Assembly (NCBI RefSeq): GCF_025979705.1
Contig: NZ_CP110136.1
Location: 1,426,001 to 1,490,000 of the forward strand
Origin: Hymenobacter sp. YIM 151858-1
Lineage (GTDB): Bacteria; Bacteroidota; Bacteroidia; Cytophagales; Hymenobacteraceae
Reading direction: 5' to 3'
DNA length: 64,000 nt
The notes beneath the pieces are model-generated. The model was not told where the DNA came from and did not search any database. It was given only the letters and a program-made list of their open reading frames with translations. Of this stretch, positions 2,411-60,743 are shown in pieces; within the stretch, counting starts at the first letter, position 1, and each line of letters begins with the position of its first letter. The position numbers were made by a program, and so were the translations under genes.

Positions 2411-2516
2411 GAGCTGTTAGCTGACAGCGGTTAGCTGTTAGCGTTTTTCGGTTTTCGCACAATCTGATTTCCCTAGCCCTTCAGCTCACAGCTAACGGCT
2501 GTCAGCTAACAGCTAA
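2411..2516. repeat. 7-nt periodic inverted-repeat array (word GTTAGCT) between lpxD and lpxC
   Basis: The left arm (2411-2442) is built of AGCTGTT/AGCTGAC-like heptamers. The right arm (2482-2516) is its complement, matching at about 29 of 31 positions, with a unique spacer of about 40 bp. The array starts 13 bp after the lpxD stop and ends 3 bp before the lpxC ATG, so it fills the intergenic space. In RNA it would form a long hairpin covering the ribosome-binding region of lpxC. Confidence 0.9.
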
Positions 2517-2519
2517 CCC

Positions 2520-3914
2520 ATGTTCGACAAACAGCATACGATTAAGGCCCCGGTTACCGTGAGCGGTGTGGGGCTGCATACGGGCGTGCAGGCTACCATG
2601 ACCTTCTGCCCTGCTCCCGTAAACCACGGCTACAAGTTCCAGCGCATCGACCTAGAGGGCCAGCCCATCGTGGATGCCGACGTGGACAACGTGGTTGACC
2701 TTTCGCGCGGCACCACCATCGAGCAGAACGGTGCCCGCGTAAACACCGTGGAGCACACGCTGGCTGCCCTGGTTGGTTTGCAAATCGACAATGTACTGAT
2801 TCAACTCGATGGCCCCGAGCCGCCCATCATGGATGGTTCGTCGCTGCCGTTTGTGGAAGCCTTGCAGGCCGTGGGCCTCGAAGAGCAGAACGCCCTGCGC
2901 AACTACTTCGAGATTCCCGACGAAATCCGCTTTGTCGACAATGCCCGCGGCGTGGAAATTGCCGCCCTGCCGCTGAACGATTACCGCGTAACGGTAATGG
3001 TTGACTACAACTCGCCGGTACTGGGCTCGCAGCACGCTTCGCTCACCAACATCGAGCAGTTTTCCGAAGAAATTGCGGCATCGCGCACCTTCTGCTTTCT
3101 GCACGAGCTCGAAGCCCTTTATAAGTCGAACCTGATTAAGGGCGGCGACCTGAGCAACGCCATTGTGGTGGTCGACCGCGTGGTGAGCGAAGAAGAGCTG
3201 GGCGACCTGGCTACCATGCTGGGCAAGCCCAAAGTGGCCGTCAAGAAGGAAGGCATCCTGAACAACGTAGACCTGCGCCACAAAAACGAGCCTGCCCGCC
3301 ACAAGCTGCTCGACGTAGTGGGCGACCTGGCGTTGGTAGGCCGCCCCATCAAAGGCCAAATTCTGGCTGCCCGGCCCGGCCACGCGGCCAACGTGGCCTT
3401 TGCCAAGAAGATCAAGAAGAAAATGCAGGAGGTGGATACCTCGCCGGTGCCGCAGTACGATCCGTCGCGCCCGCCGGTAATGGACATCAACCAGATTGCC
3501 CAAACGCTGCCGCACCGTTACCCTTTCCTGCTCATCGACAAGATCATCCACCTGGATGGCACTACGGTAACGGGCGTGAAGAACGTGACGATGAACGAAC
3601 AGTTCTTCACGGGGCACTTCCCGGGCAACCCCGTGATGCCGGGCGTGCTACAAATTGAGGCCATGGCCCAAACGGGCGGTATTCTGGTGCTGAACACCGT
3701 GCCCGACCCCGAGAACTACTGGACGTATTTCCTGGGCATCGAAAACTGCCGCTTCCGCCGCAAGGTTATCCCCGGCGACACCATCATTTTCAAGTGTCAG
3801 CTGGTTTCGCCGGTTAAGCGTGGTATCGCCAAAATGCGCGGCCAGGCTTTTGTAAATGGCAAAGTGGTAATGGAGGCAGAAATGTCGGCCAGCATTGTTC
3901 GGAAAGACGCTTAA
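2520..3914 (+). CDS. lpxC: LpxC-FabZ fusion: UDP-3-O-acyl-GlcNAc deacetylase / 3-hydroxyacyl-ACP dehydratase
   Basis: 464 residues; a natural fusion typical of Bacteroidota. The LpxC part (about residues 1-310) is a zinc deacetylase catalysing the committed lipid A step: it shows VEHTLAAL with zinc-ligand His79 and the HKLLDVVGDLAL segment with His and Asp ligands. The FabZ part (from about residue 321) is a hot-dog dehydratase of fatty acid synthesis with LPHRYPFLLID (catalytic His) and HFPGNPVMPGVLQIEAMAQ (catalytic Glu). Joining them puts the enzymes that compete for and consume 3-hydroxyacyl-ACP chemistry under one expression signal. ATG 2520 lies 3 bp after an inverted-repeat array. Confidence 0.97.
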   Translation: MFDKQHTIKAPVTVSGVGLHTGVQATMTFCPAPVNHGYKFQRIDLEGQPIVDADVDNVVDLSRGTTIEQNGARVNTVEHTLAALVGLQIDNVLIQLDGPEPPIMDGSSLPFVEALQAVGLEEQNALRNYFEIPDEIRFVDNARGVEIAALPLNDYRVTVMVDYNSPVLGSQHASLTNIEQFSEEIAASRTFCFLHELEALYKSNLIKGGDLSNAIVVVDRVVSEEELGDLATMLGKPKVAVKKEGILNNVDLRHKNEPARHKLLDVVGDLALVGRPIKGQILAARPGHAANVAFAKKIKKKMQEVDTSPVPQYDPSRPPVMDINQIAQTLPHRYPFLLIDKIIHLDGTTVTGVKNVTMNEQFFTGHFPGNPVMPGVLQIEAMAQTGGILVLNTVPDPENYWTYFLGIENCRFRRKVIPGDTIIFKCQLVSPVKRGIAKMRGQAFVNGKVVMEAEMSASIVRKDA

Positions 3915-3915
3915 A

Positions 3916-4019
3916 CCAATTATCAATGATCAATGAACAATTTTCACCGAACGCAGAAGCCCGGAAATCCGGCCTAATCGTTGTTCGCTGATCATTGCTC
4001 ATTGCTAATTGTTCATTGC
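3916..4019. repeat. 7-nt periodic inverted-repeat array (word CAATGAW) between lpxC-fabZ and lpxA
   Basis: The left arm (3917-3942) repeats TCAATGA/CAATGAAC-type words. The right arm (3989-4019) repeats their complement (TCATTGC, TCATTGC, TAATTGT, TCATTGC). The array begins 2 bp after the lpxC-fabZ stop and ends about 5 bp before the lpxA ATG. The spacer contains a small GC hairpin (CCGGAAATCCGG). Confidence 0.9.
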
Positions 4020-4023
4020 ATAA

Positions 4024-4821
4024 ATGAATCAACCGCTCGCCTACATACACCCCGACGCGCGCATTGCGCAGAACGTGGTGGTCGAACCGTTTTCCACCAT
4101 CGCGCAAGACGTAGAAATTGGGGAAGGCACCTGGATTGGCCCCAACGTCACGATTATGCCGGGGGCGCGCATCGGCAAAAACGTAAAGATTTTTCCGGGC
4201 GCAGTAATTTCGGCCATTCCGCAAGACCTGAAGTTTGCCGGCGAGAAAACCACGGCCCACATCGGCGATAATACCGTTATCCGCGAGTGCGTAACGATTA
4301 ACCGCGGCACCATCGATCGGATGAAAACGGTGGTGGGCAGCAACTGCCTGCTGCAGGCCTACGTGCACATTGCCCACGACTGCTTTGTGGGCGACAACTG
4401 CATCCTATCGAATACCACGCAGCTGGCCGGCCACGTGGTGGTAGGCGATTGGGCCATCCTGGGTGGCACTTCGGCGGTGCACCAGTTTGTGCACATCGGG
4501 CAGCATGCCTTTATCGGTGGCGGCTCGTTGGTGCGCAAAGATGTGCCCCCGTTCATCAAAGTAGGTCGCGAACCCCTCACCTACGCCGGCGTGAATTCGG
4601 TTGGCCTGCGTCGCCGCGGGTTCAGCGAAGAGGCCATTCTTCAGATTCAGCAGTGCTTCCGCTTGCTCTTTATGAGCGGCCTGAACACCAGCGATGCGCT
4701 CGATAAGATTGAGTTGGAGCTGCTGCCCTCGCCCGAGCGCGACGAGGTGGTAAACTTCGTGCGCAACTCGAGCCGCGGCATTATCAAGGGCTACTCGCGC
4801 AACGGCAACAGTGCAGATTGA
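4024..4821 (+). CDS. lpxA: Acyl-ACP--UDP-N-acetylglucosamine O-acyltransferase LpxA
   Basis: 265 residues, the normal length. It catalyses the first lipid A step, moving a 3-hydroxyacyl chain from ACP to UDP-GlcNAc in the cytoplasm. A left-handed beta-helix of hexapeptide repeats (residues 1-190) is followed by the C-terminal helical acetyltransferase domain. The segment LLQAYVHIAHDCFVGDNC carries the catalytic His region. It is the third lipid A gene in the cluster, and its last 11 bases overlap the next gene's GTG start, which suggests translational coupling. Confidence 0.97.
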   Translation: MNQPLAYIHPDARIAQNVVVEPFSTIAQDVEIGEGTWIGPNVTIMPGARIGKNVKIFPGAVISAIPQDLKFAGEKTTAHIGDNTVIRECVTINRGTIDRMKTVVGSNCLLQAYVHIAHDCFVGDNCILSNTTQLAGHVVVGDWAILGGTSAVHQFVHIGQHAFIGGGSLVRKDVPPFIKVGREPLTYAGVNSVGLRRRGFSEEAILQIQQCFRLLFMSGLNTSDALDKIELELLPSPERDEVVNFVRNSSRGIIKGYSRNGNSAD

Positions 4822-5437
4822 GGCCATCGGCCTGGGCAAACGCTTCGGCCGTGATTGGATCTTCCGTGAGCTGACGCACACGTTCAGCCCCGGCACTGCC
4901 ACGGCATTGCTTGGGCCCAACGGAGCCGGCAAAAGCACGCTTTTGCAGGTACTGGCGGCCTATACCCTGCCCTCGGCCGGCGAGCTGCGCTTTAGCCTGC
5001 AAGGCCACCGGGTGCCGGCCGACGAGGTAGCCCGGCACCTAGGGCTGTGCGCCCCCTACCTGGAGCTGATTGAGGAGCTTACCCTGGCCGAGCTGGTGCA
5101 TTTTCATACCCGGTTCCGGCCTTTGCGCGCCGGCATGTCGCCGGCGCAGCTCATCGACCTGATGCAGCTGCCGCACGCCCGCCACAAGCTGGTACGCGAC
5201 TTTTCGTCGGGCATGAAGCAACGGGTAAAGCTGGCCTTAGCCTTGTATGCCGCTGCCCCGCTGCTGCTCCTCGACGAGCCCACTACCAACCTCGACCGGA
5301 CGGGGGTGGCGTGGTACCACGAGCACGTGGCTGCTACCACGCCCAACCGCTTGGTGCTGGTAAGCTCGAACGTAGAAGAGGAGTACGCCTTTTGCCAGGC
5401 GCGGCTGCACGTAACGGACTTCGCCCCGCGCAAGTAG
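4811..5437 (+). CDS. Single-domain ABC transporter ATP-binding protein
   Basis: 208 residues with Walker A (LLGPNGAGKST), the signature motif (FSSGMKQRVKLAL) and Walker B (LLLLDEPTTNLD). It begins with GTG inside the 3' end of lpxA (11-nt overlap). No permease gene lies beside it, so its membrane partner is not visible here. Coupling to lpxA suggests an envelope role, but that is inference; CcmA-like or EF-P-linked ATPases in this phylum look similar. The C-terminal end is short, with no extra domain. Confidence 0.85.
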   Translation: MQIEAIGLGKRFGRDWIFRELTHTFSPGTATALLGPNGAGKSTLLQVLAAYTLPSAGELRFSLQGHRVPADEVARHLGLCAPYLELIEELTLAELVHFHTRFRPLRAGMSPAQLIDLMQLPHARHKLVRDFSSGMKQRVKLALALYAAAPLLLLDEPTTNLDRTGVAWYHEHVAATTPNRLVLVSSNVEEEYAFCQARLHVTDFAPRK

Positions 5438-5640
5438 TTTCTTGCGGCCATTACGGCGTCCTTCCGGCTTTTGCTGCTTATCTTAGGATAAGTGCCTGCA
5501 CGTTTCAACTCTTTTTTCTGCTAACTGCCAACCGCTTTCGGCTAACCCCGTAACCTGCACTTCTGAGCCTGCGTTTCCCGGCTCAATTAAAGCTGCTCCC
5601 TTATTTTTACCCCGCTCAACCCCATCAACTCACCGCTCTC

Positions 5641-6018
5641 ATGAGAAGCTACGACGACCTCGACGACGATCTGTTCGATGATGACGACGAGCTTGATAGC
5701 TCCATCTCCAACAGCCGCCCCAGCAAGGGCAGCCGCAAAGGCGCTTCCCCGGAAGACTCGCTGGCGACGAAATATGCCGATTACCTGATGTGGCGCGACA
5801 CCGGCTCGTCGCACGATGAGGCCCTTGATTTGGCCAGCCTCACCGAAGACGAATTTGCCGCTGCCGAAGCCCAGGAAGACCCCGAAGGCTCGGGCCGGTA
5901 CGGCTCGGGTGGGTTCGACGATGACGAAGAATCCGGCGACCTGGACGACGACGACAGCTACGAGGCGCAGCGCCGCAGCCGCCGGGGCAACCGCGACTAC
6001 GACGAAGACGAGTTTTAA
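5641..6018 (+). CDS. Highly acidic low-complexity protein, unknown function
   Basis: 125 residues, not recognised. The N-terminus is an Asp-rich block (DDLDDDLFDDDDELD). The middle contains an ordered-looking helix (EDSLATKYADYLMWRDTGSSHDEALDLASLTEDEFAAAEA), followed by a second acidic tract and a basic RRSRRGNR patch before DYDEDEF. No signal peptide or membrane segment is seen, so it is probably cytoplasmic and mostly disordered. A strong terminator follows at once. The 200 bp upstream hold no gene, only a T-rich stretch. Confidence 0.7.
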   Translation: MRSYDDLDDDLFDDDDELDSSISNSRPSKGSRKGASPEDSLATKYADYLMWRDTGSSHDEALDLASLTEDEFAAAEAQEDPEGSGRYGSGGFDDDEESGDLDDDDSYEAQRRSRRGNRDYDEDEF

Positions 6019-6046
6019 GCCATACGCCTAGCCGTGCTACGGCACA

Positions 6047-6087
6047 CGAAAAGGCCCGCCGGAACTGTGTTCCGGCGGGCCTTTTCG
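6047..6087. terminator. Rho-independent terminator
   Basis: A 19-bp perfect stem (AAAAGGCCCGCCGGAAC core) with a TGT loop. Flanking A and T tracts make it bidirectional between the acidic protein gene and the DUF4197 gene on the minus strand. Confidence 0.85.
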
Positions 6088-6178
6088 TTTTGAGACATGC
6101 TTGCGGTAAAGCGGGCTGAACTCCCACGCCTGTCCGCTCAGGTGCAAGCTCTAACTTTTGGGCTCTCACGGCTACATT

Positions 6179-11235: not shown

Positions 11236-13920
11236 TTACAGCGCCGCCAGGCTTTGCTCGAGGGCTGCGATTTTAGCCTCGGCATCGGCCAGCTTCTGCC
11301 GCTCGCGCTCTACCAGGTCGGCCTTGGCGTTCTGCACAAACTTCTCATTGGCGAGCTTTTTCAGCACCGAGTCGCGGAAGCCCTGCGCGTACTCCAGCTC
11401 CTTGGTCAGACGCTCACGCTCGGCCCCTAGGTCGATCTGGCCTTCCATGGGCACGAAGAACTCGGCACCACCCGAAACGAAGCCTACCGCCGCAGCCGGG
11501 GCAGCATCTACCACGCTGATTTCGGTGAGGGCCGCCAGCTTACGGATGATGCCATCGAAATCCTGCAGCAGAGCTGTGTCCTCGGTTTTGGCCGCCAGCG
11601 TGAGGGGCTTGTTCGGACCCAGGCCTTTCTGGTTGCGAATGTTACGCACACCGGCCACCACATCCAGTGCCTTTTCCACCCGGCCCAGCAGCTCGGCGCC
11701 GCCCTCAACGAGCTGTTGCTTGGGCCAGGCGGCTACGCAGAGGTAGTCCTTGGGGCCGCGCTCGGCCAGGTGGTGCCATATTTCCTCCGTGATGAACGGC
11801 ATGAACGGGTGCAGCAGCTTCAGGAGTTGCTCGAAGAAGCCGGTGGTGCGGCGCAGCGTTTCGGCATCGATGGGGGCCTGGTAAGCCGGCTTGATCATCT
11901 CCAGGTACACCGAGCAGAAGTCGTCCCACACCAGCTTGTAGATGGTCATGAGCGCGTCGGACATCCGGAACTTGTCGAAGTGCTCGTCGAGCTCGGCCAG
12001 GGTGCTCTGCAGCTTCGCCTGAAACCACTCCGTGGCCCGCTCGTTCACGAACGGCAGCTCCTCGCTTACCTCCCACCCCTGCGTGAGGCGGAAGGCGTTC
12101 CAGAGCTTGTTGGTGAAGTTGCGGCCCTGCTCTACCAGCTTAATATCGAACAGCAAGTCGTTGCCGGCCGGCGACGAGAACAGCATGCCGGTACGCACAC
12201 CGTCGGCGCCGTACTGCGCAATGAGGTCGAGCGGGTCGGGCGAGTTGCCCAGGCTCTTGCTCATCTTGCGGCCCTGCGCATCTCGCACAATACCGGTGAG
12301 ATACACGTTGCGGAACGGCACATCCTTGCGATACTCCAGGCCGGCCATGATCATGCGCGCTACCCAGAAGAACAGGATTTCCGGGGCCGTTACGAGGTCG
12401 TCGGTCGGGTAGTAATAGTTGACGTCGGGGTTATCCGGATCCTTAAATCCGTCGAATACCGAGATGGGCCACAGCCACGACGAGAACCAGGTATCAAGCA
12501 CGTCTTCGTCCTGGCGTAAGTCGCTAGCTTGCAGCTCGCTGTTGCCGCTTTGCTCACGCGCCAGTTGAAGTGCTTCCTCGTCGGTGAGGGCCACCACAAA
12601 GGTGCCATCGGGCAGGTAATAGGCCGGAATGCGCTGGCCCCACCACAGCTGACGCGAGATGCACCAGTCGCGCACGTTCTCCATCCACACCCGGTACATG
12701 TTCTTGAACTTGGGCGGGTGCAGCTTCACGGCGTCGTTCTCCACTACCTCCAGGGCGGGGCCGGCGAGGTGCTCCATTTTCAGGAACCACTGCAACGACA
12801 GGCGCGGCTCGATAACGGCCCCGGTGCGCTCCGAGGTCTGCAGCACGCTCTGGTACTCTTCCACCTTGTCGAGCAGCTCGGCGTCGCCTAGGTCCTTCAC
12901 GATGTTGCGGCGCGCGGCAAAGCGGTCCTGCCCCACGTACAGCACGGCCTTCTCGTTCAGGAAGCCGCCGTCGTCCAGGATATCAATTACCGGCAGCTTG
13001 TGCTTCAGGCCCAGCTCGTAGTCGTTCAGGTCGTGCGCGGGCGTTACCTTCAGCGCCCCCGTTCCGAAATCAATGGCTACGTACTCATCAAGAATAACCG
13101 GAATTTCGCGACCTAGGAGCGGAATGCGCACCTTGGCACCGTGCAGGTGCTTGTAGCGCTCATCGTTCGGGTTCACGGCCACGGCCACGTCGGCCATGAT
13201 GGTTTCGGGGCGCGAGGTGGCGACGGTTAGGTAGGTAACAGGTGATGAGGTGACAAGTGACACGTCTTCATTTTCACCTGTTGCTTGTCCCTTGTTACCT
13301 GTCACCACCTCATACCGCAGGTGGTACATCTTGGCCACGGTGTCCTTCGGAATTACTTCCTCATCCGACAAGGCCGTGCGGCCCTGCGGGTCCCAGTTCA
13401 CCATGCGAATGCCGCGGTAAATCAGGCCCTTGCGGTACAAATCGACGAACACGCGCAGTACGGCCTCGGTCAGGTCGGGCTCCATGGTGAAGCGCGTGCG
13501 CGACCAGTCGCAGGAGGCGCCGAGCTTTTTCAGCTGCTCCAGGATAATGCCGCCGTACTTCTCCTTCCACTCCCAGGCATACTTCAGAAACTCCTCCCGC
13601 GAGAGGTCTTTCTTCTCGATGCCCCGCTCCTTCAGCATCTGCACCACTTTGGCTTCGGTGGCGATGGAGGCGTGGTCGGTGCCGGGCACCCAGCAGGCTT
13701 CTTTGCCCTGCATGCGGGCGCGGCGCACCAGCACATCCTGAATGGTGTTGTTCAGCATGTGGCCCATGTGCAGCACGCCGGTTACGTTCGGGGGCGGAAT
13801 CACCACCGAGTAAGCAGGTTTGCGCGGATTGGGCTTCGAGTTAAAAAAGCCTTGCTCCTGCCAGCGTTGGTACCATTTATCTTCTACCTCGGCTGGCTGG
13901 TAGGTTTTTGGGATGGACAT
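11236..13920 (-). CDS. valS: Valyl-tRNA synthetase
   Basis: 894 residues; class I synthetase charging tRNA-Val. HIGH is present as HMGH (residues 51-54), KMSKS at residues 552-556, the CP1 editing domain between them (VATSRPETI), and a C-terminal coiled-coil arm ([18 protein letters not shown]). Unusually, residues about 205-229, just before the editing-domain strand [11 protein letters not shown], are encoded by a 7-nt-periodic inverted repeat of the kind otherwise found between genes. It is inserted in frame and adds a linker rich in T, G, E, N and V. The gene otherwise looks intact, so the insertion must be tolerated. Confidence 0.97.
13231..13308. repeat. 7-nt periodic inverted-repeat array inside valS
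   Basis: The left arm (13234-13263) reads as GGTAACA, GGTGATG, AGGTGACA, AGTGACA-type words. The right arm (13273-13306) is the complementary series (TCACCTG, TTGCTTG, TCCCTTG, TTACCTG). The arms share their word with the arrays at 50192-50349 and 60664-60743. The insertion keeps the reading frame. Confidence 0.9.
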
Positions 13921-20067: not shown

Positions 20068-21021
20068 TTACCGTACCGGCGGGCAGTACGAAAGCAGGCC
20101 CTGCTCGGGGTTGTAGTGGTTGCTCAGCTTGGGGTAGTTGCCGGTGCCGTCGTAGGGGCGTTTGTCGGGGTGCTGCTGGCAGGCTTCGGAGCAAGCGCCG
20201 TCGAGCTTTTCGCCGCAGCTTTCGCATTGCACCACGTGGTCGTTGCAATGGGGGTTGGCGCAGTTCACCATCCGCTCGTTGGGCTGGCCGCAGCATACGC
20301 AGTGCGCTAGCACGGTGGGGTTTACGGAGTTCACATCCACGGCCACCCGACCATCAAACACGTAGCACTTGCCCTCAAAGTCTTCGCCGCCCGCTTCGAG
20401 GCCGTACTTGATGATGCCGCCGTGGAGCTGGTATACGTTTTCGAACCCTTGCTCGAGCAGGTACGCCGAGGCCTTTTCGCACTTAATACCGCCGGTGCAA
20501 TACGTCAGAATCTTCTTGTCCTGATACTTCCGCAACTCCTCCACCTTCTCCGGAAACTCCCGGAAGTTGCCGATGTCGAGGGTAACAGCATTCTTGAACC
20601 GGCCCAGGTTGTGCTCGTAATCGGAGCGCACGTCCAGAATTACCACGTCGTCGCGGTCTTTCATGTCGCGGAATTCTTTCGGCGACAAGTGCACCCCGGT
20701 ACGCTCGTAGGGCTTGATGGCGGGCAAGCCCACGTGCACGATTTCGGGCTTGATGCGCACGTGCAGTTTCTGAAAGGCATGGGCTGGCGCCTCCTCGATT
20801 TTAAACTCCAAAGCATCGAAGCGCGCGTCGGCCTTCACGGCCTGCATGTAGGCCTCGCAGTTTTCCTGCGTGCCCGAAACGGTGCCGTTCAGGCCTTCCT
20901 CGGCCACAATAATGCGGCCGCGCAAATCGAGTTTCAGGCAGAGGCGGTGGTGCTCTTCGCGAAACGCCAGTACATCGTCGATGGGCGTGTAGCAGTAGTA
21001 AAGCAGTACGCGGTAGTCCAT
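20068..21021 (-). CDS. trhO: tRNA uridine(34) hydroxylase TrhO (YceA rhodanese family)
   Basis: 317 residues. An N-terminal acylphosphatase-like domain (LYYCYTPIDDVLAFREEHHRL) is followed by a rhodanese domain (VILDVRSDYEHNLGRFKNAVTLDIGNFREFP) with the active loop CTGGIKCEK. The C-terminal Cys/His-rich domain (CVCCGQPN ... CANPHCNDHVVQCESCGEKLDGACSEACQQHP) is typical. TrhO makes 5-hydroxyuridine at the wobble base of tRNA. An AT-rich inverted-repeat array starts 6 bp upstream of the ATG. Confidence 0.93.
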   Translation of the reverse strand: MDYRVLLYYCYTPIDDVLAFREEHHRLCLKLDLRGRIIVAEEGLNGTVSGTQENCEAYMQAVKADARFDALEFKIEEAPAHAFQKLHVRIKPEIVHVGLPAIKPYERTGVHLSPKEFRDMKDRDDVVILDVRSDYEHNLGRFKNAVTLDIGNFREFPEKVEELRKYQDKKILTYCTGGIKCEKASAYLLEQGFENVYQLHGGIIKYGLEAGGEDFEGKCYVFDGRVAVDVNSVNPTVLAHCVCCGQPNERMVNCANPHCNDHVVQCESCGEKLDGACSEACQQHPDKRPYDGTGNYPKLSNHYNPEQGLLSYCPPVR

Positions 21022-21027: not shown

Positions 21028-21125
21028 AATTATGAATTAATAATTCTGAATTATGAATTGACCGGATGGCTGCTTGGCTACACCTCTGGCGCTGAAAAGA
21101 TTCAGCATTCAGAATTCAGAATTAC
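21028..21125. repeat. 7-nt periodic inverted-repeat array (word AATTCTG/AATTATG)
   Basis: The left arm (21028-21060) repeats AATTATG/AATTAAT/AATTCTG-type words. The right arm (21099-21125) repeats ATTCAGC/ATTCAGA. It fills the space between the acetyltransferase gene, whose stop codon at 21122-21124 lies in the right arm, and the trhO start. Confidence 0.88.
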
Positions 21126-21754
21126 ACCTTCGCAGCTGGGTTGCCGAAAACGGTTTGGCCGGCGGGCACATCGGCCACTACCACGGCGCCGGCTCCTACG
21201 CGCGCTTTGGCCCCGATTTTAACCCCGGACACAACCACCGCGCCCGAGCCGATAAAGGCTTGCTCCTCCACCACGACTTCGCTGTTGATGATGGCCCCGG
21301 CGCCAACTTGCACGTAGTCGGCGAGCTGGGCGCGCACATCTACCACGGCCCGGGCGCCAATCAGGCAACCGTTGCCGATTTTGCAATCGGAGCTGAGCAC
21401 GGCGCCGGCCGACACCAGGTTGCCGTGGCCCAGCCAAGCGTGCTCCGAAACGCTGGCCGCCCGGTGAATGGCGTTTACGGGCACTTGCTCGTACTCCTGG
21501 CGCAGCATGTTGGTGAGGGCTCGGCGGCTGGCCGTGTCTTCGGTAGCCACGAACACCTCGCATTTTTTGCCCAGCAGCTTCAGAAACTGCTCGTCGTCGG
21601 TGCTGCCCATCACCGGAATGTCGTGCAGATCGGTGTTCTGCAGGTTCTGGTTGTCGTCGAGCAGACAGTACACCACCACTTCGTTGCTGTTGAAGGCATC
21701 GAGGGCGGCGGTGCCAACGTTTTGGGCACCGAGGATGATAACGGGATTTTCCAT
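21122..21754 (-). CDS. NeuD-like sugar O-acetyltransferase (left-handed beta-helix)
   Basis: 210 residues from ATG 21754. The N-terminal PglD/NeuD-type nucleotide-sugar-binding domain (VIILGAQNVGTAALDAFNSNEVVVYCLLDD) is followed by hexapeptide repeats (GHGNLVSAGAVLSSDCKIGNGCLIGARAVV ... GNPAAKV). Family members acetylate sialic-acid-like or amino sugars for surface polysaccharide. It lies near envelope genes but not in a clear polysaccharide operon, so the substrate is unknown. Confidence 0.85.
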   Translation of the reverse strand: MENPVIILGAQNVGTAALDAFNSNEVVVYCLLDDNQNLQNTDLHDIPVMGSTDDEQFLKLLGKKCEVFVATEDTASRRALTNMLRQEYEQVPVNAIHRAASVSEHAWLGHGNLVSAGAVLSSDCKIGNGCLIGARAVVDVRAQLADYVQVGAGAIINSEVVVEEQAFIGSGAVVVSGVKIGAKARVGAGAVVVADVPAGQTVFGNPAAKV

Positions 21755-33666: not shown

Positions 33667-33818
33667 TAGTTAGGGAGTTTAAGAGTTTTGAGTTAGTGAG
33701 TTACGGGGTCTAGCGTTAGCTCATGGCACCAGCCAAATGCGCATTCAGCTAAACCCCTTAACTCACTAACTCATAAACCCAAAACTCCTAAACTCCCTAA
33801 CTCCTTAACTCCCAAACT
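33667..33818. repeat. 8-nt periodic inverted-repeat array (word AGTTAGGG/CTAACTCC) between marC and rnhA
   Basis: The left arm (33667-33708) reads AGTTAGGG, AGTTTAAG, AGTTTTG, AGTTAGTG, AGTTACGG. The right arm (33754-33818) is a longer series of complementary words (TTAACTCA, CTAACTCA, AAAACTCC, TAAACTCC, CTAACTCC, TTAACTCC). It begins on the base after the marC stop and ends 3 bp before the rnhA start. Confidence 0.9.
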
Positions 33819-49422: not shown

Positions 49423-50196
49423 ATGGAATTCATTAAAGTAACGCCGCAGGCGCGGCCGCAGGTTGCCCTGATCGAGCTGAACCGCCCCAAAGAGCTGAAC
49501 GCCCTGAACCTGCAGCTGATGCAGGAAGTAGCCGCGGCCCTGAAGGAGCTCGACGACAACGACGCGGTGCGCGTGATTGTGCTGACGGGCTCGGAGCGCG
49601 CCTTCGCGGCCGGCGCCGACATCAAGCAAATGGCCAACCGCACGGCCATCGATATGCTGATTGTGGACCAGTTTACGGTGTGGGACCAGATTCGGAAAAC
49701 CAAGAAGCCCCTGATTGCGGCCGTATCGGGCTTTGCCCTAGGGGGCGGCTGCGAGCTGGCCATGACGTGCGACATGATTGTGGCCTCCGAAACCGCCCAG
49801 TTTGGCCAGCCCGAAATTCGGATTGGGGTTATGCCCGGCGCCGGCGGCACGCAGCGCCTGACGCGCGCCGTGGGCAAGGTCCGCGCCATGGAAATGGTGC
49901 TGACGGGCCAGCCCATCGGGGCCGCGGAAGCGTACCGCGCCGGCCTGGTAAACCGCGTGGTTCCCGTGGGCCAGTACCTCGAAGAAGCCTTCCGGCTGGC
50001 TGCCAGCATTGCCGAAATGTCGCCGGTGGCGGCGCGCCTGGCCAAAGAATCGGTAAACCGCGCCTTCGAAACGCACCTCGACGAAGGCTTGCACTTCGAG
50101 CGCAAAAACTTCTACCTCACCTTCGCCTCCGAAGATCAGAAAGAAGGCATGGCGGCTTTCGTGGAGAAGCGCAAACCGGCGTTTAAGGGGAGGTAA
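49423..50196 (+). CDS. Enoyl-CoA hydratase/isomerase family protein
   Basis: 257 residues. Crotonase fold with oxyanion-hole segments ERAFAAGADIKQMANR and GFALGGGCELAMTCDMIVA; the catalytic Glu pair appears in PEIRIGVMPGAGGTQRL. Likely fatty-acid beta-oxidation, though 3-hydroxybutyryl-CoA dehydratase activity is possible. The last codons and the stop lie in a repeat array's left arm. Confidence 0.9.
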   Translation: MEFIKVTPQARPQVALIELNRPKELNALNLQLMQEVAAALKELDDNDAVRVIVLTGSERAFAAGADIKQMANRTAIDMLIVDQFTVWDQIRKTKKPLIAAVSGFALGGGCELAMTCDMIVASETAQFGQPEIRIGVMPGAGGTQRLTRAVGKVRAMEMVLTGQPIGAAEAYRAGLVNRVVPVGQYLEEAFRLAASIAEMSPVAARLAKESVNRAFETHLDEGLHFERKNFYLTFASEDQKEGMAAFVEKRKPAFKGR

Positions 50197-50349
50197 CAAG
50201 TAACAGGTGATGAGGTGACAGGTAACACCTCGTTTGTCATGTCGAGCGGCAGCGAGACATCTGGGTGCCAGCACCAGCTTGGGGACGGCTTCACGAGTCT
50301 CACTGTAGCTTACTTCCCTGTTGCCTGTCACCTATCACCTGTTACCTGA
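50192..50349. repeat. 7-nt periodic inverted-repeat array (word GGTAACA/GGTGACA) with a nested second repeat
   Basis: The left arm (50192-50229) begins inside the stop codon region of the enoyl-CoA hydratase gene and reads GGTAACA, AGTAACA, GGTGATG, AGGTGACA, GGTAACA. The right arm (50317-50349) is the complement. Between them lies a different repeat-like hairpin (ATGTCGAGCGGCAGCGAGACAT). The arms share their word with the arrays at 13231 and 60664. Confidence 0.88.
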
Positions 50350-50384
50350 ATTAAACCTTTTTGCTTGGGATACGCTTATAGGAC

Positions 50385-51791: not shown

Positions 51792-53042
51792 TTGGTTTTT
51801 CTGTACTCGCTTGCTATTCGCCTCTACGGCCTGCTGCTGCTCGCAGTAGCTCCTTTCATCCCGAAGGCCAGGCAATGGGTGGCGGGGCGCCGCAACTGGC
51901 AGGCCCGCATGGCCGCCGACCTAGGTACCGATACCGCCCCGCGCCTGTGGGTGCACTGCGCTTCGCTGGGCGAGTTTGAGCAGGGCCGCCCGCTGATGGA
52001 GGCCATGCGCCGGCAGCACCCGCACCACAAAATCGTGCTCACGTTCTTTTCGCCCTCGGGCTACGAGGTGCGCAGGCAGTGGCCCGGCGCCGATTACATT
52101 TACTACCTCCCGCTCGATACCGCCGCCAACGCCCGCGCCTTTGTGGCGGCCGTGCGCCCGCAGCTAGCCGTGTTTGTGAAGTACGAGTTCTGGTACCACC
52201 ACTTGGCCGAGCTGAAGCGCCAGGGCGTGCCTACGGTGTGCGTGTCGGCTATTTTTCGGCCCGATCAGGTGTTTTTTAAGCCTTGGGGCGGTTTTTTCAG
52301 GAAGGTACTGCACCAACTGACGCATCTTTTCACGCAGGACGAAGCCTCGGCGGAGCTGCTGCGCGGCATCGGGCTAACCCAGGTGAGCGTAGCCGGCGAC
52401 ACGCGCTTCGATACAGTTGTGGATACTGCTGCCGCTCCTGCGCGCGAGCTGCCGTTGGTAGCCGCGTTTGTGGCCGATGGCGCCCCCGTACTGGTGGCCG
52501 GCAGCGTATGGCCGCCCGACGTGGAGGTGCTGGCCCTGGCGCTGCGCCATTGGCAGGGCAGCCTGCGCACAATTGTAGCCCCGCACGAAATAACCGAAGC
52601 GCACCTGCAGCAGGTAGAGGCCGTTTTGCCGGGTCAGGTAGTTCGGTACTCGCAGGCCACCACGGCAAGCGTGGGACAAGCCCGCGTGCTGCTCATCGAC
52701 AACATCGGCTTGCTGCGCGAGCTGTACCGGGCGGGCTCGGTGGCCTACATCGGTGGGGCGTTTGGTAAGGGTTTGCACAATACCCTGGAGGCCGCGGCCT
52801 TCGGCTTGCCGTTGCTCTTCGGCCCTAGGTATCAGAAGTTCAAAGAAGCCCGCGACCTGGTAGCCCTAGGTGCCGCCGCTGCCGTTACCACTGCAGAGGA
52901 AAACGAGCAACAACTCGCGCTCCTGCTCAACAATGCCGCGTACCGCACCGAACTCGGCCAGCGGGCCCGCGCGTATGTACAAGAGTCGGCGGGCGCTACG
53001 GGGCGCATTATGCAGGCGGCGGGGCAGTGGATGAGTGAATGA
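51792..53042 (+). CDS. waaA: 3-deoxy-D-manno-octulosonic acid transferase (Kdo transferase)
   Basis: 416 residues from TTG 51792, chosen because the family begins at this hydrophobic anchor (VFLYSLAIRLYGLLLLAVAPFIPKARQWVAGRRN) and the longer frame runs into the promoter box. GT-B fold; WVHCASLGEFEQGRPLMEAM carries the catalytic Glu and FVKYEFWYHHL the usual Kdo transferase motif. It adds Kdo to lipid IVA at the inner membrane, joining the lipid A genes at the start of the window. The final codons lie in a repeat arm. Confidence 0.92.
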   Translation: MVFLYSLAIRLYGLLLLAVAPFIPKARQWVAGRRNWQARMAADLGTDTAPRLWVHCASLGEFEQGRPLMEAMRRQHPHHKIVLTFFSPSGYEVRRQWPGADYIYYLPLDTAANARAFVAAVRPQLAVFVKYEFWYHHLAELKRQGVPTVCVSAIFRPDQVFFKPWGGFFRKVLHQLTHLFTQDEASAELLRGIGLTQVSVAGDTRFDTVVDTAAAPARELPLVAAFVADGAPVLVAGSVWPPDVEVLALALRHWQGSLRTIVAPHEITEAHLQQVEAVLPGQVVRYSQATTASVGQARVLLIDNIGLLRELYRAGSVAYIGGAFGKGLHNTLEAAAFGLPLLFGPRYQKFKEARDLVALGAAAAVTTAEENEQQLALLLNNAAYRTELGQRARAYVQESAGATGRIMQAAGQWMSE

Positions 53043-53180
53043 GCAAATGAGTAGATGAGTAGATATAAGACCGGTGCAAATCACGCATCCACTCATTCAC
53101 TCATCCACCCATCTACTCATCTACTCATCTACGCATCCACTCACCTACTCATTCACTCATCCACGCATCTACTCATCTCT
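53030..53180. repeat. 8-nt periodic inverted-repeat array (word TCATCTAC/GTAGATGA)
   Basis: The left arm (53030-53064) overlaps the last three codons and stop of waaA. The right arm (53082-53180) is longer: a tandem run of CATCCACT, CATTCACT, CATCTACT-type octamers complementary to the left. It ends 7 bp before the rsgA ATG. The arms are unequal in length. Confidence 0.88.
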
Positions 53181-53186
53181 CCGCAC

Positions 53187-55977: not shown

Positions 55978-56436
55978 ATGAAAACAGCCGAAATCCACAC
56001 CAACAAAGGCGTGATGAAGGTCGAGTTCTTCGAGCAAGACGCCCCCAACACGGTTAAAAACTTCACCGACCTGGCCCAGAAAGGCTACTACGACGGCCTG
56101 AAGTTTCACCGCGTAATTCCCAACTTCGTTATTCAGGGCGGCTGCCCCAACACCCGCGACGGCGCCAAGGGCATGCCCGGCACCGGCGGCCCGGGCTACA
56201 AAATCGCCTGCGAAACCTCGGGCGGCAACCAGCGCCACGACCGCGGCATCCTGAGCATGGCCCACGCCGGCCGCAACACCGGCGGTTCGCAGTTCTTCAT
56301 CTGCCACTCGCGCGACAACACCGCCCACCTCGACGGCGTGCACACCGTGTTCGGCAAAGTGGTGGAGGGCCTGGACGTGATTGACCAGATCAAGCCCAAC
56401 GACTCGATCGACAAAATCGTGGTGAGCGAGGCGTAA
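55978..56436 (+). CDS. Cyclophilin-type peptidyl-prolyl isomerase
   Basis: 152 residues, no signal peptide, so cytoplasmic. [58 protein letters not shown]. It catalyses proline cis-trans change in folding. A strong terminator follows. Confidence 0.93.
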
Positions 56437-56452
56437 GTTCCGCCCCATGGCC

Positions 56453-56493
56453 CACAAAAAAGCCCGGAGCGTTGGCTCCGGGCTTTTTTTGTG
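56453..56493. terminator. Bidirectional terminator
   Basis: CACAAAAAAGCCCGGAGC pairs with GCTCCGGGCTTTTTTTGTG around GTTG. Confidence 0.85.
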
Positions 56494-56510
56494 GGCCGTG
56501 GGGCTACGGT

Positions 56511-58043
56511 CTAGCGCCGGCGGCGCTTGCGCGAGTCAAAATCCTCTTCGTCCTCATCGTCGTCATCCGAGCCAAAGCTGGGCATCGTGAACATCGATGA
56601 AAACAAATCTTTAAACTGGGTGCCGGCCGTGAGGCGGTTGCGCGAAATCAGGCTCATCTCGGCCATGCCGTGCAAGGCAAACTCCATCCAGAAATACTGG
56701 TCGTTTTTGAGCAGCTCGGCTGGTACGCTTTGCTGCACCAGGTCGCGCAGGCCGGGCACGGCCTCCAGGGCAGTGCGGTAATCGGCTTCGGAGGCGTCGT
56801 TCAGCACATCAATCGTGTGCGCACCAAACCAATCCTGTACGGGCTTGAAAGCGTTGGGCTTGTCTTTCTGCTTTTTCACCTTCTCGGGGTCGGGGAAGTA
56901 CTGCAGAAACTGCGTGCGCAGGGCTTTGCCCATCAGCTTTTCGGCCACGATGCCGGCTCCCTCCTGCTCGCCCTCGTACACCAGCTCCACTTTGCCGGTA
57001 ATGGCCGGCACGGCCGCCAGAAAATCGGCTACCCGAATGCGCGTCGTTTCTTCGCCGTTGAGCAGGGCGCGGCGCTCGGCGGCCGCCACCACCTGCTCGT
57101 AGGCCGAAATGGTGAGGCGCGCCGACACGCCCGATTTAGCATCGACGTACTCCGAGCCGCGGGCCTCAATGGCCACCTGCTCAACCAGATCGAGCACTAC
57201 CTCCGTGCCGGCCACGCGCTCCTGCTGCTCGGGCCGCAGGCGGGCCTCCTGGCGGGTAATGCGCTTGCCGATATCGATGGTTTTGGGGTAGTGCGTGATG
57301 ATTTGCGCGTCGATGCGGTCCTTGAGCGGCGTCACGATGGAGCCGCGGTTGGTGTAGTCCTCGGGGTTGGCCGTGAACACGAACTGCAGATCGAGCGGTA
57401 GGCGCACCTTAAAGCCCCGAATCTGGATGTCGCCTTCCTGCAAAATATTGAACAGCGCTACCTGAATGCGGGCCTGCAAGTCGGGCAGCTCGTTGATGAC
57501 GAAAATGCCGCGGTGCGCCCTAGGTATCAGGCCGAAGTGAATGACGCGTTCATCGGAATACGGCAGCTTTAGCGTAGCCGCTTTAATGGGGTCGGCGTCG
57601 CCGATGAGGTCGGCTACGGATACATCGGGCGTGGCCAGCTTTTCGGTGTAGCGCTCGGCGCGGTGCACCCAGGCAATGGGCGTGTCGTCGCCGCGCTCGG
57701 CTACCAGGTCGCGGGCGTAGCGCGAGAGGGGCTGCAGCGGGTCGTCGTTCAGCTCGGAGCCTTCTACCACGGGCATGTACTCGTCGAGCAGCTCCACCAG
57801 TTGGCGCGCAATGCGGGTTTTGGCCTGGCCACGCAAGCCCAGCAGGTTAATGTGGTGCAGGCTCAGGATAGCGCGCTGCAGATCGGGAATAACGGTTTCT
57901 TCGTAGCCGTGGATGCCCGGAAAGGCATTTTCGCGCCGGCGGAGTTTCTGGATAAGGTTATCGCGCAGTTCCTCGCGCACGGAGCGCGACCGATACCCCG
58001 CGGCTTTCAACTGGCCGAGGGTGCTGATTTGTTCGTGATTCAT
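56511..58043 (-). CDS. AAA+ ATPase, magnesium-chelatase (ChlI/BchI)-like
   Basis: 510 residues from ATG 58043. Walker A is GLRGQAKT (residues 69-76), Walker B region GIFVINELPDLQARIQVALFNIL, sensor in FTANPEDYTNRGSIVTPLKDRID. The C-terminus is acidic then basic (DDDDEDEEDFDSRKRRRR). A VWA protein gene (59498-60601) lies on the same strand beyond an oppositely oriented cytochrome gene. AAA/VWA pairs act together in metal-chelatase or MoxR-type remodelling; the client is unknown. Confidence 0.87.
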   Translation of the reverse strand: MNHEQISTLGQLKAAGYRSRSVREELRDNLIQKLRRRENAFPGIHGYEETVIPDLQRAILSLHHINLLGLRGQAKTRIARQLVELLDEYMPVVEGSELNDDPLQPLSRYARDLVAERGDDTPIAWVHRAERYTEKLATPDVSVADLIGDADPIKAATLKLPYSDERVIHFGLIPRAHRGIFVINELPDLQARIQVALFNILQEGDIQIRGFKVRLPLDLQFVFTANPEDYTNRGSIVTPLKDRIDAQIITHYPKTIDIGKRITRQEARLRPEQQERVAGTEVVLDLVEQVAIEARGSEYVDAKSGVSARLTISAYEQVVAAAERRALLNGEETTRIRVADFLAAVPAITGKVELVYEGEQEGAGIVAEKLMGKALRTQFLQYFPDPEKVKKQKDKPNAFKPVQDWFGAHTIDVLNDASEADYRTALEAVPGLRDLVQQSVPAELLKNDQYFWMEFALHGMAEMSLISRNRLTAGTQFKDLFSSMFTMPSFGSDDDDEDEEDFDSRKRRRR

Positions 58044-58367
58044 CAGGTAGTGCGGAATGGGTGGGCACATGCCCCCTGGCTCTAAACCACGAGGTAGGCA
58101 CCTAGGTTCGAAGGCGATGCGCAGTTTACGCAAACCGCCGCGGGTAAGGCGCTTTTCCTTTCGCCTTCCACAAGCCAACGTTGCGCCCGATTGGCACCAA
58201 CCGCGCACCCCTCTCGCTCCCGGGGTTCAAGCTAGCCTGCCGACCTAGGGCCCCGATGTAATTACCCAGCAGGCTCAGAATAAATCATCCAGTGTTAAGA
58301 TGCTGTATAACAGCTCTTTACCGTTGCATCACATGATTATGCTAGTGCCTTGAGTGCAAGACAAAAT
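58044..58367. other. Intergenic region without a gene
   Basis: About 325 bp between the divergent AAA ATPase and cytochrome genes, with two CCTAGG sites (58101, 58245). No promoter box was recognised for the AAA gene, and no reading frame of credible length. Confidence 0.5.
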
Positions 58368-58375
58368 TACTTTTG
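58368..58375 (+). promoter_or_regulatory. Bacteroidota -7 promoter box for the cytochrome c gene
   Basis: TACTTTTG, 27 bp before ATG 58403. Confidence 0.6.
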
Positions 58376-58402
58376 TCACACTCTCTTAACAGCCTTCTTA
58401 TC

Positions 58403-59380
58403 ATGAAAAAAGTCCTCAAGCTCCTCGGCCTGGCGCTGGCAACGGTATTGTTCGTGGCGGTGTGCGCCGCTGCGTTTGTGCAAGTGCGCGGCATTCCGAG
58501 CTACGACGTACCGAAGGTGCCGGCTCAAACCGTGGCCCTCACGCCGGAGCGCGTAGCACAAGGGCACAAAATCGTCAATGCGTTGTGCGGCGACTGCCAC
58601 CTGGACCGCAACACGGGTACCCTCAGCGGCAAATTGCTGACCGAAGTACCACCGGAGTTCGGCAAACTTTACTCGGCCAACATCACCCAGGACAAAACGC
58701 ACGGCATCGGCGCCTGGACCGACGCCGAGCTGATTGCTTTGCTGCGCACCGGCATCGGCCGCGACGGGCGCTTTCGCATCGTGATGCCCAACTTCGTGCA
58801 CATGTCCGACGAGGACGTGGCCAGCGTGGTAGCCTACCTGCGCTCCAACAACCCGCAAGTGCAGGCCAACCCCACGCCCTCGCACGCGCAGGAGCCGTCG
58901 TTCCTGGCCAAAGCCTTGGTGAACACCGTGATGAAGCCCACGCCCGTGCCCACCTCGGCCGTGGCAACGCCACCCGCCTCCGATGCTGTGGCTTACGGCC
59001 GCTACCTGGTGGTGGGGCGCTACAAGTGCTACGACTGCCACTCCAAGGACCACAAGTCCAACAACGCCCTCGAGCCCGAAAAGTCGGAAGGCTACCTAGG
59101 CGGCGGCACCGCCTTCATCACCCCCGACGGCGAGGAAATTCCGAGCCGCAACATCACCATGGACCCCGAAACCGGCATCGGCGACTGGACGGAGGCGCAG
59201 TTTGTGCAATCGGTGCGCTACGGCCAGGGGCCAAACGGCACGCTGAAGCTGCCCATGCCCAAGTTTACCCTCATGGATGAGGCCGAAGCCAAGGCGATTT
59301 ACGCCTATCTGCGCACCGTGCCCGTAATAAAAAATGCCACGCCCGAAGATGGCGCTGGCACCGCTGTGGCTGCGCGTTAG
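58403..59380 (+). CDS. Dihaem cytochrome c, membrane anchored
   Basis: 325 residues from ATG 58403. One N-terminal transmembrane anchor (about residues 7-27), then two cytochrome c domains with haem sites CGDCH (residues 62-66) and CYDCH (209-213) and the downstream motif ligand Met regions (VMPNFVHM; LPMPKFTLM). It carries electrons in the periplasm. It lies between the AAA and VWA genes but on the opposite strand. The gene ends at a strong terminator. Confidence 0.9.
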   Translation: MKKVLKLLGLALATVLFVAVCAAAFVQVRGIPSYDVPKVPAQTVALTPERVAQGHKIVNALCGDCHLDRNTGTLSGKLLTEVPPEFGKLYSANITQDKTHGIGAWTDAELIALLRTGIGRDGRFRIVMPNFVHMSDEDVASVVAYLRSNNPQVQANPTPSHAQEPSFLAKALVNTVMKPTPVPTSAVATPPASDAVAYGRYLVVGRYKCYDCHSKDHKSNNALEPEKSEGYLGGGTAFITPDGEEIPSRNITMDPETGIGDWTEAQFVQSVRYGQGPNGTLKLPMPKFTLMDEAEAKAIYAYLRTVPVIKNATPEDGAGTAVAAR

Positions 59381-59402
59381 GGAAAAACGAAGTCCGGCAC
59401 AA

Positions 59403-59433
59403 AAAACGGCCGCCCAACAAGGGCGGCCGTTTT
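59403..59433. terminator. Bidirectional terminator
   Basis: AAAACGGCCGCCC pairs with GGGCGGCCGTTTT around 5 bases, between cytochrome c (+) and the VWA gene (-). Confidence 0.85.
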
Positions 59434-59497
59434 GCTTTTGTATCCCTAGGTGCTCCGCGGCACAAACAAGGCAAATACCTAGGCAGCCGCTTGGGCC

Positions 59498-60601
59498 CTA
59501 CAAATTCTTGCGGCGGTTACGCTTGTAGTCCTCGAAAATCAGGCCGCCCAGGCCTTTAAGCGAGCTATAATACGCCTTGCCCTGGTTGGTTTCGGTGAAC
59601 TCGCGCACGAACTGCTGCAGGTACGGGTCGGAGGCAATCATGAAGGTGGTGATGGGGATTTTGAGGCGGCGGGCAGCGGCGGCCAGGTTCAGCGTCTTGT
59701 TCACCACTTTGCGGTCGAGGCCAAACGAGTTTTTGTAGTAGCCGCCGGGCTCCTTCAGGCAGGTGGGCTTGCCGTCGGTTATCATGAAGATCTGCTTGTT
59801 GGCGGTTTTGCGCTTGCGCAGCAAATCCATGGCCAGCTCCAGGCCCGCCACCGTGTTGGTGTGGTAGGGGCCCACCTGCAGGTACGGCAAGTCCTTCACC
59901 TCAATTTGCCAGGCATCGTTGCCGAACACGATGATGTCGAGGAAGTCCTTGGGGTACTTCTGCTTCACCAGCTCGGCCAGGGCCATGGCTACTTTTTTGG
60001 CCGGTGTAATGCGGTCTTCGCCGTACAAAATCATCGAGTGCGAGATGTCAATCATCAGCACCGTGGAGGTCTGGGTTTTGTGCTCGGTGTCGCGCACCTC
60101 CAGGTCGCCTTCGGTGAGCAGGTAATTGCCATCGAGGCCGTGGTTGAGCTGGGCGTTGCGCAGGCTCTCGGTCATCTCGATTTGCTCGATGGTGTCGCCA
60201 AACTGGTAGTCGCGCAGGTCGGTGGTCAGCTCGTCGCCCTGGCCCGCGTGCGGGGTGCGGTGGTTGCCCTGCGTGCCGCGCTTCAGCTTGCCGAAAATTT
60301 CTTCGAGGGCCGATTTGCGGATGAGCTGCTCCGATTTGGCCGTAATGCGCAGCTCGCCCAGTTGCTGCTCGTTTTCATCGATGTAGCCTTTCTTTTTCAG
60401 GTCTTCGATGAAGTCGCCCATGCCGTACTCGTCGTCGGTGAGGCCGTACTGCTTATCCAGCTCCGAAAGCCAGGAAAGGGCCTCCGCCACGTCGCCCGAC
60501 GTGATGGTGACCAACTGCATAAACAACTTAAATAGCGTGTCGAAGCCCTTTTCGGTGGATTCTTCGGGCACAAAATCGCGGAAGCGGAAGCCAACTGCCA
60601 T
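59498..60601 (-). CDS. VWA domain protein (chelatase/MoxR-type partner)
   Basis: 367 residues. An N-terminal helical region (about 1-175) precedes a von Willebrand A domain with the MIDAS motif DISHS (Asp185) and a later ITDGKPT. No signal peptide, so cytoplasmic. It is the likely partner of the AAA ATPase at 56511-58043. An inverted-repeat array lies upstream. Confidence 0.87.
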   Translation of the reverse strand: MAVGFRFRDFVPEESTEKGFDTLFKLFMQLVTITSGDVAEALSWLSELDKQYGLTDDEYGMGDFIEDLKKKGYIDENEQQLGELRITAKSEQLIRKSALEEIFGKLKRGTQGNHRTPHAGQGDELTTDLRDYQFGDTIEQIEMTESLRNAQLNHGLDGNYLLTEGDLEVRDTEHKTQTSTVLMIDISHSMILYGEDRITPAKKVAMALAELVKQKYPKDFLDIIVFGNDAWQIEVKDLPYLQVGPYHTNTVAGLELAMDLLRKRKTANKQIFMITDGKPTCLKEPGGYYKNSFGLDRKVVNKTLNLAAAARRLKIPITTFMIASDPYLQQFVREFTETNQGKAYYSSLKGLGGLIFEDYKRNRRKNL

Positions 60602-60663
60602 AGTTCAGAGGAATGTACCGGAAAACAACGGCCAACTCAGGTTAGTTTTTCGTTTGCGATAGA

Positions 60664-60743
60664 AGTAACACGTAACAGGTGACACGTGACAGGTTTTCCG
60701 GTAGTTATGCTCACTTGTTACCTGTTACTTGTCACCTTATCAC
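60664..60743. repeat. 7-nt periodic inverted-repeat array (word GTAACAG/GTGACAG)
   Basis: The left arm (60664-60694) reads AGTAACA, CGTAACA, GGTGACA, CGTGACA. The right arm (60711-60743) is complementary (TTGTTACC, TGTTACT, TGTCACC, TTATCACC). It sits between the VWA and DUF427 genes and ends 11 bp before the DUF427 ATG. Same word as the arrays in valS and after the enoyl-CoA hydratase gene. Confidence 0.88.

Follow-up and report, generated by a model that had tools for sequence, protein, structure and literature searches.

Hairpin arrays of 7- and 8-nucleotide words in the gene gaps of Hymenobacter: the stem is often retained while the word changes

The stretch of DNA analysed here, hereafter the window, comprises 64,000 nucleotides (nt) of Hymenobacter sp. 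YIM 151858-1, namely bases 1426001-1490000 on contig 1 of its genome (4.62 Mb; G000), whose PheS is closest, among the 80 loci kept, to that of Hymenobacter edaphi and that of H. jeollabukensis. Its genes were called with our own codon-usage script, and ten proteins flanking the features of interest were named via Pfam: LpxD, LpxC-FabZ, LpxA, a valyl-tRNA synthetase (ValS), a UPF0176/rhodanese protein, a hexapeptide-repeat protein, a MarC-family protein, an RNase H, an enoyl-CoA hydratase and RsgA. Associated with these genes are eight arrays (A1-A8; Table 1) in which tandem 7- or 8-nt words form opposed arms, each array having an inverted partner arm. All eight had been described in an original prediction made from the sequence alone, and they lie close to where it placed them. 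Its further claims that the arrays share a rule of construction while their words differ by locus, that seven are intergenic and the eighth is in frame within valS, and that the loci at 13231, 50192 and 60664 have one word in common, GGT(A/G)ACA, are all borne out. The hairpin score was matched by none of 500 dinucleotide shuffles for six of the eight arrays, by 2 of 500 for A4 and by 14 of 500 for the valS array, and the RNA-fold z-scores range from -4.0 (A8) to -12.0 (A5). An Rfam scan of the window returned no family at the gathering score.

Table 1. The eight periodic hairpin arrays, in window coordinates, with their words and flanking genes
Array	Extent	Arms	Spacer	Period	Word (left / right arm)	Flanks
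A1	2412..2517	2412-2442 + 2484-2517	41 nt	7 nt	AGCTGTT / AACAGCT	lpxD stop 2397; lpxC-fabZ start 2520
A2	3917..4019	3917-3941 + 3981-4019		7 nt	CAATGAA / TTCATTG	fabZ stop 3914; lpxA start 4024
A3	13228..13310			7 nt	GGT(A/G)ACA	in frame within valS (11236-13920, minus strand)
A4	21028..21123	21028-21059 + 21100-21123		7 nt	AATTATG / CATAATT	two minus-strand genes: 21122-21754 upstream, 20068-21021 downstream
A5	33668..33818	33668-33714 + 33748-33818		8 nt	AGTTAGGG	MarC-family gene stop 33666; RNase H gene start TTG 33822
A6	50191..50350	50191-50227 + 50318-50350		7 nt	GGT(A/G)ACA	overlaps stop of upstream enoyl-CoA hydratase gene (end 50196)
A7	53026..53177	53026-53064 + 53082-53177		8 nt	AGTRRATG	includes upstream stop (gene end 53042); RsgA gene start 53187
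A8	60658..60741			7 nt	GGT(A/G)ACA	divergent genes: 59498-60601 minus; start 60755 plus

Examination of orthologous gaps shows that the hairpin is often kept where its word differs between species. The lpxD-lpxC (A1) and fabZ-lpxA (A2) gaps were read from 70 of the 150 genomes of the family that were searched, 62 of them Hymenobacter-type, and at the thresholds used a significant periodic hairpin is present at lpxD-lpxC in 46 of these 62 and at fabZ-lpxA in 41. Among congeners, whose coding identity is 86-89% in the nearest clade and about 80% beyond it, the orthologous gap often retains a hairpin with a different word; at lpxD-lpxC the word is AGCTGTT in G000, AGGAGCT in G004 and G003, AGTTGTC in G007 and CGTTGCC in G001. 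Array-free alleles also occur, namely in G005 at lpxD-lpxC and in some congeners at A6 and A7. The words of lpxD-lpxC fall into twelve classes that require 31 changes on a 66-taxon lpxC tree (shuffled mean 32.0, minimum 27); this is a coarse count, as the single linkage that defines the classes groups some unlike words (AGTTGTC with AGAAGTG), and at A2 it collapses them into two, so that parsimony is informative at A1 only. Word class at lpxD-lpxC thus shows no phylogenetic signal. Even G003 and G002, 94.7% alike in lpxC, differ in their words at both lpx gaps. Across 127 comparisons between relatives with lpxC identity of at least 0.88, arm identity is two-peaked, at about 0.6 and about 0.9, and arms therefore tend to be either kept or replaced. 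The coding flanks up to 60 nt from the gap are closest to those of the own genus in all four cases considered (G003 and G002 at A1, G002 and G007 at A2); deeper in lpxC, G002 has some 60-nt windows for which a genome of the neighbouring genus designated g5 is an equally good match.

Such hairpins extend well beyond the window. A gapped detector was used for the survey; an ungapped one missed half of the inverted repeats of the eight arrays at its threshold. At a score of at least 23, 97 hairpins were found in the window and 20 stretches of its own genome and none in a single shuffled copy, many of the 97 being, by eye, ordinary short terminators. When the score was set to at least 15 and 80 kb from each of five congeners were included, 57 of 273 hairpins had significantly periodic arms, the period being 7 nt in 31 and 8 nt in 9 (together 40 of 57). 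Genus g5 (32 loci, 631 kb) contains 95 significantly periodic hairpins, of which 75 have a period of 7 (66 hairpins) or 8 nt (9 hairpins). Hairpins of this kind number 11 in 320 kb of the own genome, sampled as 16 evenly spaced stretches of 20 kb, and 5 in eight loci from four other genera of the family (160 kb), and among 20 genomes of other families of the phylum, each sampled by one 20-kb lpxC stretch, they occur only in G247 (5) and G182 (2). Given these counts, the arrays are a genome-wide class, dense in Hymenobacter-type genomes and patchy beyond them. The five arrays of G247 (L159) lie within 20 kb, and the two other sampled genomes of its family have none. Elsewhere in the genome of the window, G000:C1:425439-425577 (in L012) is a direct array of about 20 GTTAGCT units.

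The ends of these hairpins cluster at stop and start codons, both in the own genome and in its relatives. The idea that the arrays fill stop-to-start gaps holds for A1, A2, A4, A5 and A7 in the window; A6 ends 83 nt short of the next start and A8 lies between divergent starts, and rather than beginning just past the upstream stop codon A6 and A7 contain it. In the 16 even stretches of the own genome, gaps of at least 80 nt carry an array in 8 of 87 co-directional, 3 of 29 convergent and 0 of 39 divergent cases (p 0.066), and in all 20 stretches, four of which were picked for matches, in 11 of 116, 4 of 40 and 0 of 52 (p 0.025). The corresponding g5 counts, from stretches that all centre on the lpx operon so that the same gaps recur, are 61 of 227, 4 of 72 and 0 of 71; a further 10 of the 75 g5 hairpins, like 4 of the 40 from the window, own genome and congeners, overlap a gene or stretch edge. 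Co-directional g5 hairpins start a median of 9 nt past the stop codon and end a median of 7 nt ahead of the start codon, 55 of the 61 lying within 25 nt of both, and those in the four convergent gaps span from stop to stop, at most 9 nt from either, with some overlapping the stop codon. The first survey contained two divergent exceptions, A8 and one in G003. A second kind of repeat is found in gaps of the same type: the spacer of A6 contains part of it (GTCATGTCGAGCG...), and window positions 50230-50300 and the orthologous rnhA gap of G003 and G007 hold this other hairpin family (GTCATTCCGAGCGAAG... / GTCATGTCGAGCG...), which in the rnhA gap of G003 stands where the heptamer hairpin would be.

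Whether the arms are held complementary as RNA or as DNA can be approached through their mispairs. Selected RNA pairing predicts that G-U mispairs outnumber A-C mispairs. In 93 co-directional hairpins there are 153 G-U and 159 A-C mispairs, against 97 and 44 in 214 terminator-like control hairpins of the same genomes (Fisher p 1e-4); when each state is counted once the numbers are 77 and 70, and at the two lpx gaps they are 77 to 67 and 50 to 48. The hallmark of a structured RNA, tolerance of G-U above A-C, is therefore not seen in these larger counts. At the same time the two arms change together: 33 differences in 11 same-word groups are double ones, from one Watson-Crick pair to another, and in 50 close, overlapping pairs 32 doubles are observed where 1.1 would be expected if the arms were independent, 11 of the 32 being transversions. 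These numbers show an excess of coupled arm changes, which may have arisen in single events. As there is no overall G-U preference, something other than RNA folding would maintain the pairing, and we take the stems to be formed and repaired as DNA, under little or no selection on RNA.

The foremost competitor is a selected RNA element, in which a stop-to-start hairpin in the mRNA governs translational coupling, attenuation or mRNA stability, and in which the stem alone matters and the words are free to drift. The placement in g5, with its co-directional bias and tight spacing to stop and start codons, would be expected of such an element, as would the frequency of the hairpin at the two lpx gaps (46 and 41 of 62 genomes) and the double compensating changes; moreover, the 50 close same-word pairs, which overlap and are not independent, contain 63 G-U against 22 A-C mispairs. 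However, the larger counts lack the preference that the terminator-like hairpins of the same genomes display, the even stretches of the own genome carry arrays alike in co-directional (8/87) and convergent (3/29) gaps, so that a start codon is not needed, and in-frame copies exist in valS and pheS. In terms of sequence, the original prediction of a fold over the translation start is correct, but the want of an overall G-U preference argues against RNA folding as what maintains the arrays, and we consider a selected RNA element unlikely, if deserving of attention.

Two further regularities concern the words themselves. Firstly, they have a polarity. In 120 periodic hairpins, many at orthologous loci and hence not independent, the outward arm word is C-poor (C 0.138 versus G 0.268), with G exceeding C in 100, C exceeding G in 17 and the two equal in 3. 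Within genomes, locus pairs that share an 11-mer have the same polarity in 19 cases and the opposite in none (26 and 3 for 9-mers), and between genomes the 11-mer counts are 381 and 27; among 69 word classes there are no reverse-complement partners save one near-palindromic pair. Two candidate accounts of the left arm were rejected. A left arm that exists to supply stop codons is at odds with the excess of stop triplets over dinucleotide shuffles in both arms (354 versus 300 in left arms, 299 versus 209 in right arms), and an avoidance of self-folding by C-poor left arms with the finding that these fold no less than GC-matched random arms (-3.88 versus -3.30 kcal/mol); it is the right arms that fold less than such random arms (-2.46 kcal/mol). 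Secondly, one word recurs at many loci. The claim that the arrays are not copies of one sequence is correct in that words differ by locus, but a single word can be found at many loci of one genome with shared irregular units, as in the 21-nt identity, including an irregular 8-nt unit, between the valS array at 13231 and A6 at 50192. In G000 itself its A1 word is matched 36 times, at 12 places of which A1 is one; G004 has 3 matches, G001 has 2 and the remaining five genomes have none. Matches to the lpxD-lpxC word of G004 number 15 in G002, 15 in G003, 4 in G000, 3 in G004 and 0 in the other four, and those to the word of G007 number 14 in G002, 16 in G003, 5 in G004, 3 in G000 and 2 in G005. 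These counts are compatible with copying within the genome for G000 and G003 but not for G007.

In light of the above, we infer, with about as much confidence as doubt, that the arrays are DNA-level hairpins kept complementary and rewritten by template switching during replication, in combination with slippage by 7 or 8 nt. This reading is favoured because the word is swapped while the hairpin is kept and the flanks stay closest to the own genus in the four cases tested, because the arms are coupled and there is no overall G-U preference, and because the same word recurs at many loci of the genome of the window in 7/8-nt arms of fixed polarity. At valS, too, four genomes have spacers that look alike by eye but arm words of two kinds. 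At a stalled fork the nascent strand would fold back or switch strands and copy one arm into the other, as in quasipalindrome correction, so that a change in one arm would be written into its partner; slippage by one word would lengthen and homogenise the arms. More rarely, a switch to another array of the genome, or to the allele of another species, could swap the entire word at once. Arrays would then survive where promoter and reading frame are unharmed, that is, from stop to start, from stop to stop, or in frame in a tolerant stretch of protein, and any effect on translation or mRNA would be secondary.

Several observations weigh against template switching as the explanation. The hairpin persists at both lpx gaps across most of the group, which pure mutation does not require. 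The G-U excess of the close same-word pairs is joined by one in hairpins with 0.85-0.92 pairing (34 G-U, 18 A-C). In 10 same-word pairs with a measurable spacer, selected for arm identity of at least 0.75, the arms are 0.919 identical, the spacer 0.785 and fourfold sites 0.782. Among the word-replacement pairs with a spacer of at least 12 nt, 7 of 11 have a spacer identity below 0.5 (70 of the 127 comparisons listed), and simple arm-to-arm copying is therefore insufficient. Two words speak against copying within their own genomes: the lpxD-lpxC word of G004 occurs at only 2 other places in G004 itself, and the A1 word of G007 matches, at E 0.01, nothing but itself in G007 and nothing in G006 or G001. 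The fixed polarity of the arms is without explanation here, and no replication intermediate was seen. The replacement of whole words without their flanks and the fixed polarity are covered by no tested explanation. We entertain, as an improbable alternative, that a cellular process of these bacteria actively generates hairpins with heptamer arms at the ends of genes, always in one 5'/3' polarity and from a common stock of words, and rewrites them wholesale in an otherwise untouched gap, such that they would be inherited as a shape and not as a sequence.

The in-frame arrays bear on a third type of explanation. In valS, at one identical site, that of A3, 8 of 30 genes (the best 30 of 80 genomes) hold an insert 51-81 nt longer than the 78-nt form, and the other 22 have the 78-nt form without insert. 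Six of the eight inserts test as 7-nt-armed hairpins (G000, G004, G028, G077, G046 and G061), that of G043 is periodic with a hairpin p of 0.21, and that of G064 is significant in neither respect. Five kinds of word can be told apart by eye among them, and to the eye the spacer looks alike in G004, G077, G043 and G061 though their arm words are of two kinds. In pheS of the genome of the window, a hairpin array of GGTGACA words lies in frame between DTFFL and LLRTHTS (L150, G000:C1:3000720-3000786), and H. edaphi (L181) has an array of 8-nt words at the same site. Twelve of 81 pheS loci were inspected and the site was located in ten. Besides the two with arrays, five have a short form (78-84 nt), the site in H. 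profundi has the look of a decayed array (135 nt, without a significant hairpin), and the longer inserts of H. actinosclerus and strain CA1UV-4 lack 7/8-nt arms. Since one 7-nt unit per arm shifts the frame, these arrays probably came or changed in large steps.

Arrays in frame in valS can hardly have grown by single 7-nt units, and this, together with the presence of the insert in 8 of 30 genes and its absence from 22, and with irregular units common to loci of one genome, is what a miniature mobile element would account for, that is, a hairpin of the miniature inverted-repeat transposable element or repetitive extragenic palindrome (REP) type that is moved by a transposase and of which each word represents a subfamily. 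In REP elements one end bears a conserved tag, and a Y1 transposase is the partner. Within a word family, however, no conserved ends or spacer are apparent by eye, no systematic search for target duplications having been made, and the Y1 transposase domain (PF01797), the one transposase type searched for, although present in 28 of 36 genomes, has no match at E 0.001 in G007, which bears arrays. The domain is also present in G168, G184 and G161, which have no array in the 20 kb sampled. On this distribution the REP-associated tyrosine transposase (RAYT/Y1) was rejected as the driver, and a miniature mobile element appears rather improbable. Ordinary homologous recombination, by which gap alleles circulate between species so that words only seem replaced, is the least probable of these explanations and a poor candidate: G143 (L073) and G107 (L108), 92% alike in lpxC, do share an identical fabZ-lpxA gap, and the first 120 nt or so of lpxA are nearly identical as well, which marks a short conversion tract and apparent import, and the A2 gaps of G002 and G007 are most like g5 alleles (0.69) and the A1 gap of G003 most like that of G004 (0.72), but the flanks are closest to the own genus up to the gap in all four cases, and the origin of the alternative words would still be left unexplained.

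A compensating base change is ordinarily read as proof that an RNA is at work. In the present arrays, and at many loci, the stem outlives its letters, with no clear wobble signature of selection on RNA. Were template switching indeed responsible, the group would constitute a natural laboratory for the origin and maintenance of hairpins, as well as a warning for the inference of structure from covariation. The gaps that hold arrays also lend themselves to a stringent test of what makes 7 nt a preferred repeat length in bacteria.

The arrays are thus real, well above chance and broader than first noted, and they are closest to known heptamer repeats and to a stem described from Nostoc. The view that they have neither name nor mechanism was accordingly too strong, in that heptamer repeats, word-switching stems and template switching are all in print, even if no papers on such hairpins in Hymenobacter or Bacteroidetes were found in the open-access literature, nor, in what that literature makes accessible, a published description of genome-wide paired heptamer arms that fill gene gaps under a polarity rule. 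The resemblance to REP elements with their RAYTs lies in short palindromes of many copies (PMC3733652), and the difference in that their partner Y1 transposase does not track these arrays. Template switching has been argued to make and mend hairpins (PMC8794818) and resembles what is seen here in creating and mending inverted repeats and in producing multibase compensating changes (PMC8794818; PMC7202029, PMC8604942); it is, however, a mechanism of mutation and not a repeat family, and periodic words are absent from the accessible part of its description (PMC8794818).

With heptanucleotide repeat arrays, of the short tandemly repeated repetitive or long simple sequence repeat kind, the arrays share tandem 7-nt units that lie mostly outside genes. 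Among long simple sequence repeats 7 nt is the commonest unit in most genomes studied, and polymerase slippage has been proposed (Mrazek 2007, cited in PMC4679880); as far as they are described in the accessible part of PMC4679880, these repeats lack the inverted architecture of the present arrays. The same source (MacGregor 2015, PMC4679880) reports TAACTGA heptamers as intergenic direct repeats just upstream of start codons in Beggiatoaceae, and also in Cyanobacteria and five Bacteroidetes, while in close relatives the corresponding gap is free of repeats. The AGTTATC/AGTTGTC words of the present arrays read as TAACTGA on their right-arm strand, but that system, in the portion of the account available, has a single word, repeated directly and inverted only once in the main genome, whereas the present arrays have paired complementary arms and dozens of words. 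In the P6b stem of the Nostoc tRNA-Leu (UAA) intron, according to the available portion of the account by Kaasalainen and others (PMC4476775), one of two degenerate 7-nt repeat motifs is found, the motif has been repeatedly replaced across lineages with the stem kept, and replacement of the whole region is favoured for one group. The likeness is that at the same site the stem is kept while its heptamer motif is replaced between relatives. Unlike P6b, which, as that account presents it, is one locus in a group I intron whose RNA structure is functional, the Hymenobacter arrays occupy many loci, lie between protein genes and within valS and pheS, employ many more words and have no overall preference for wobble pairs.

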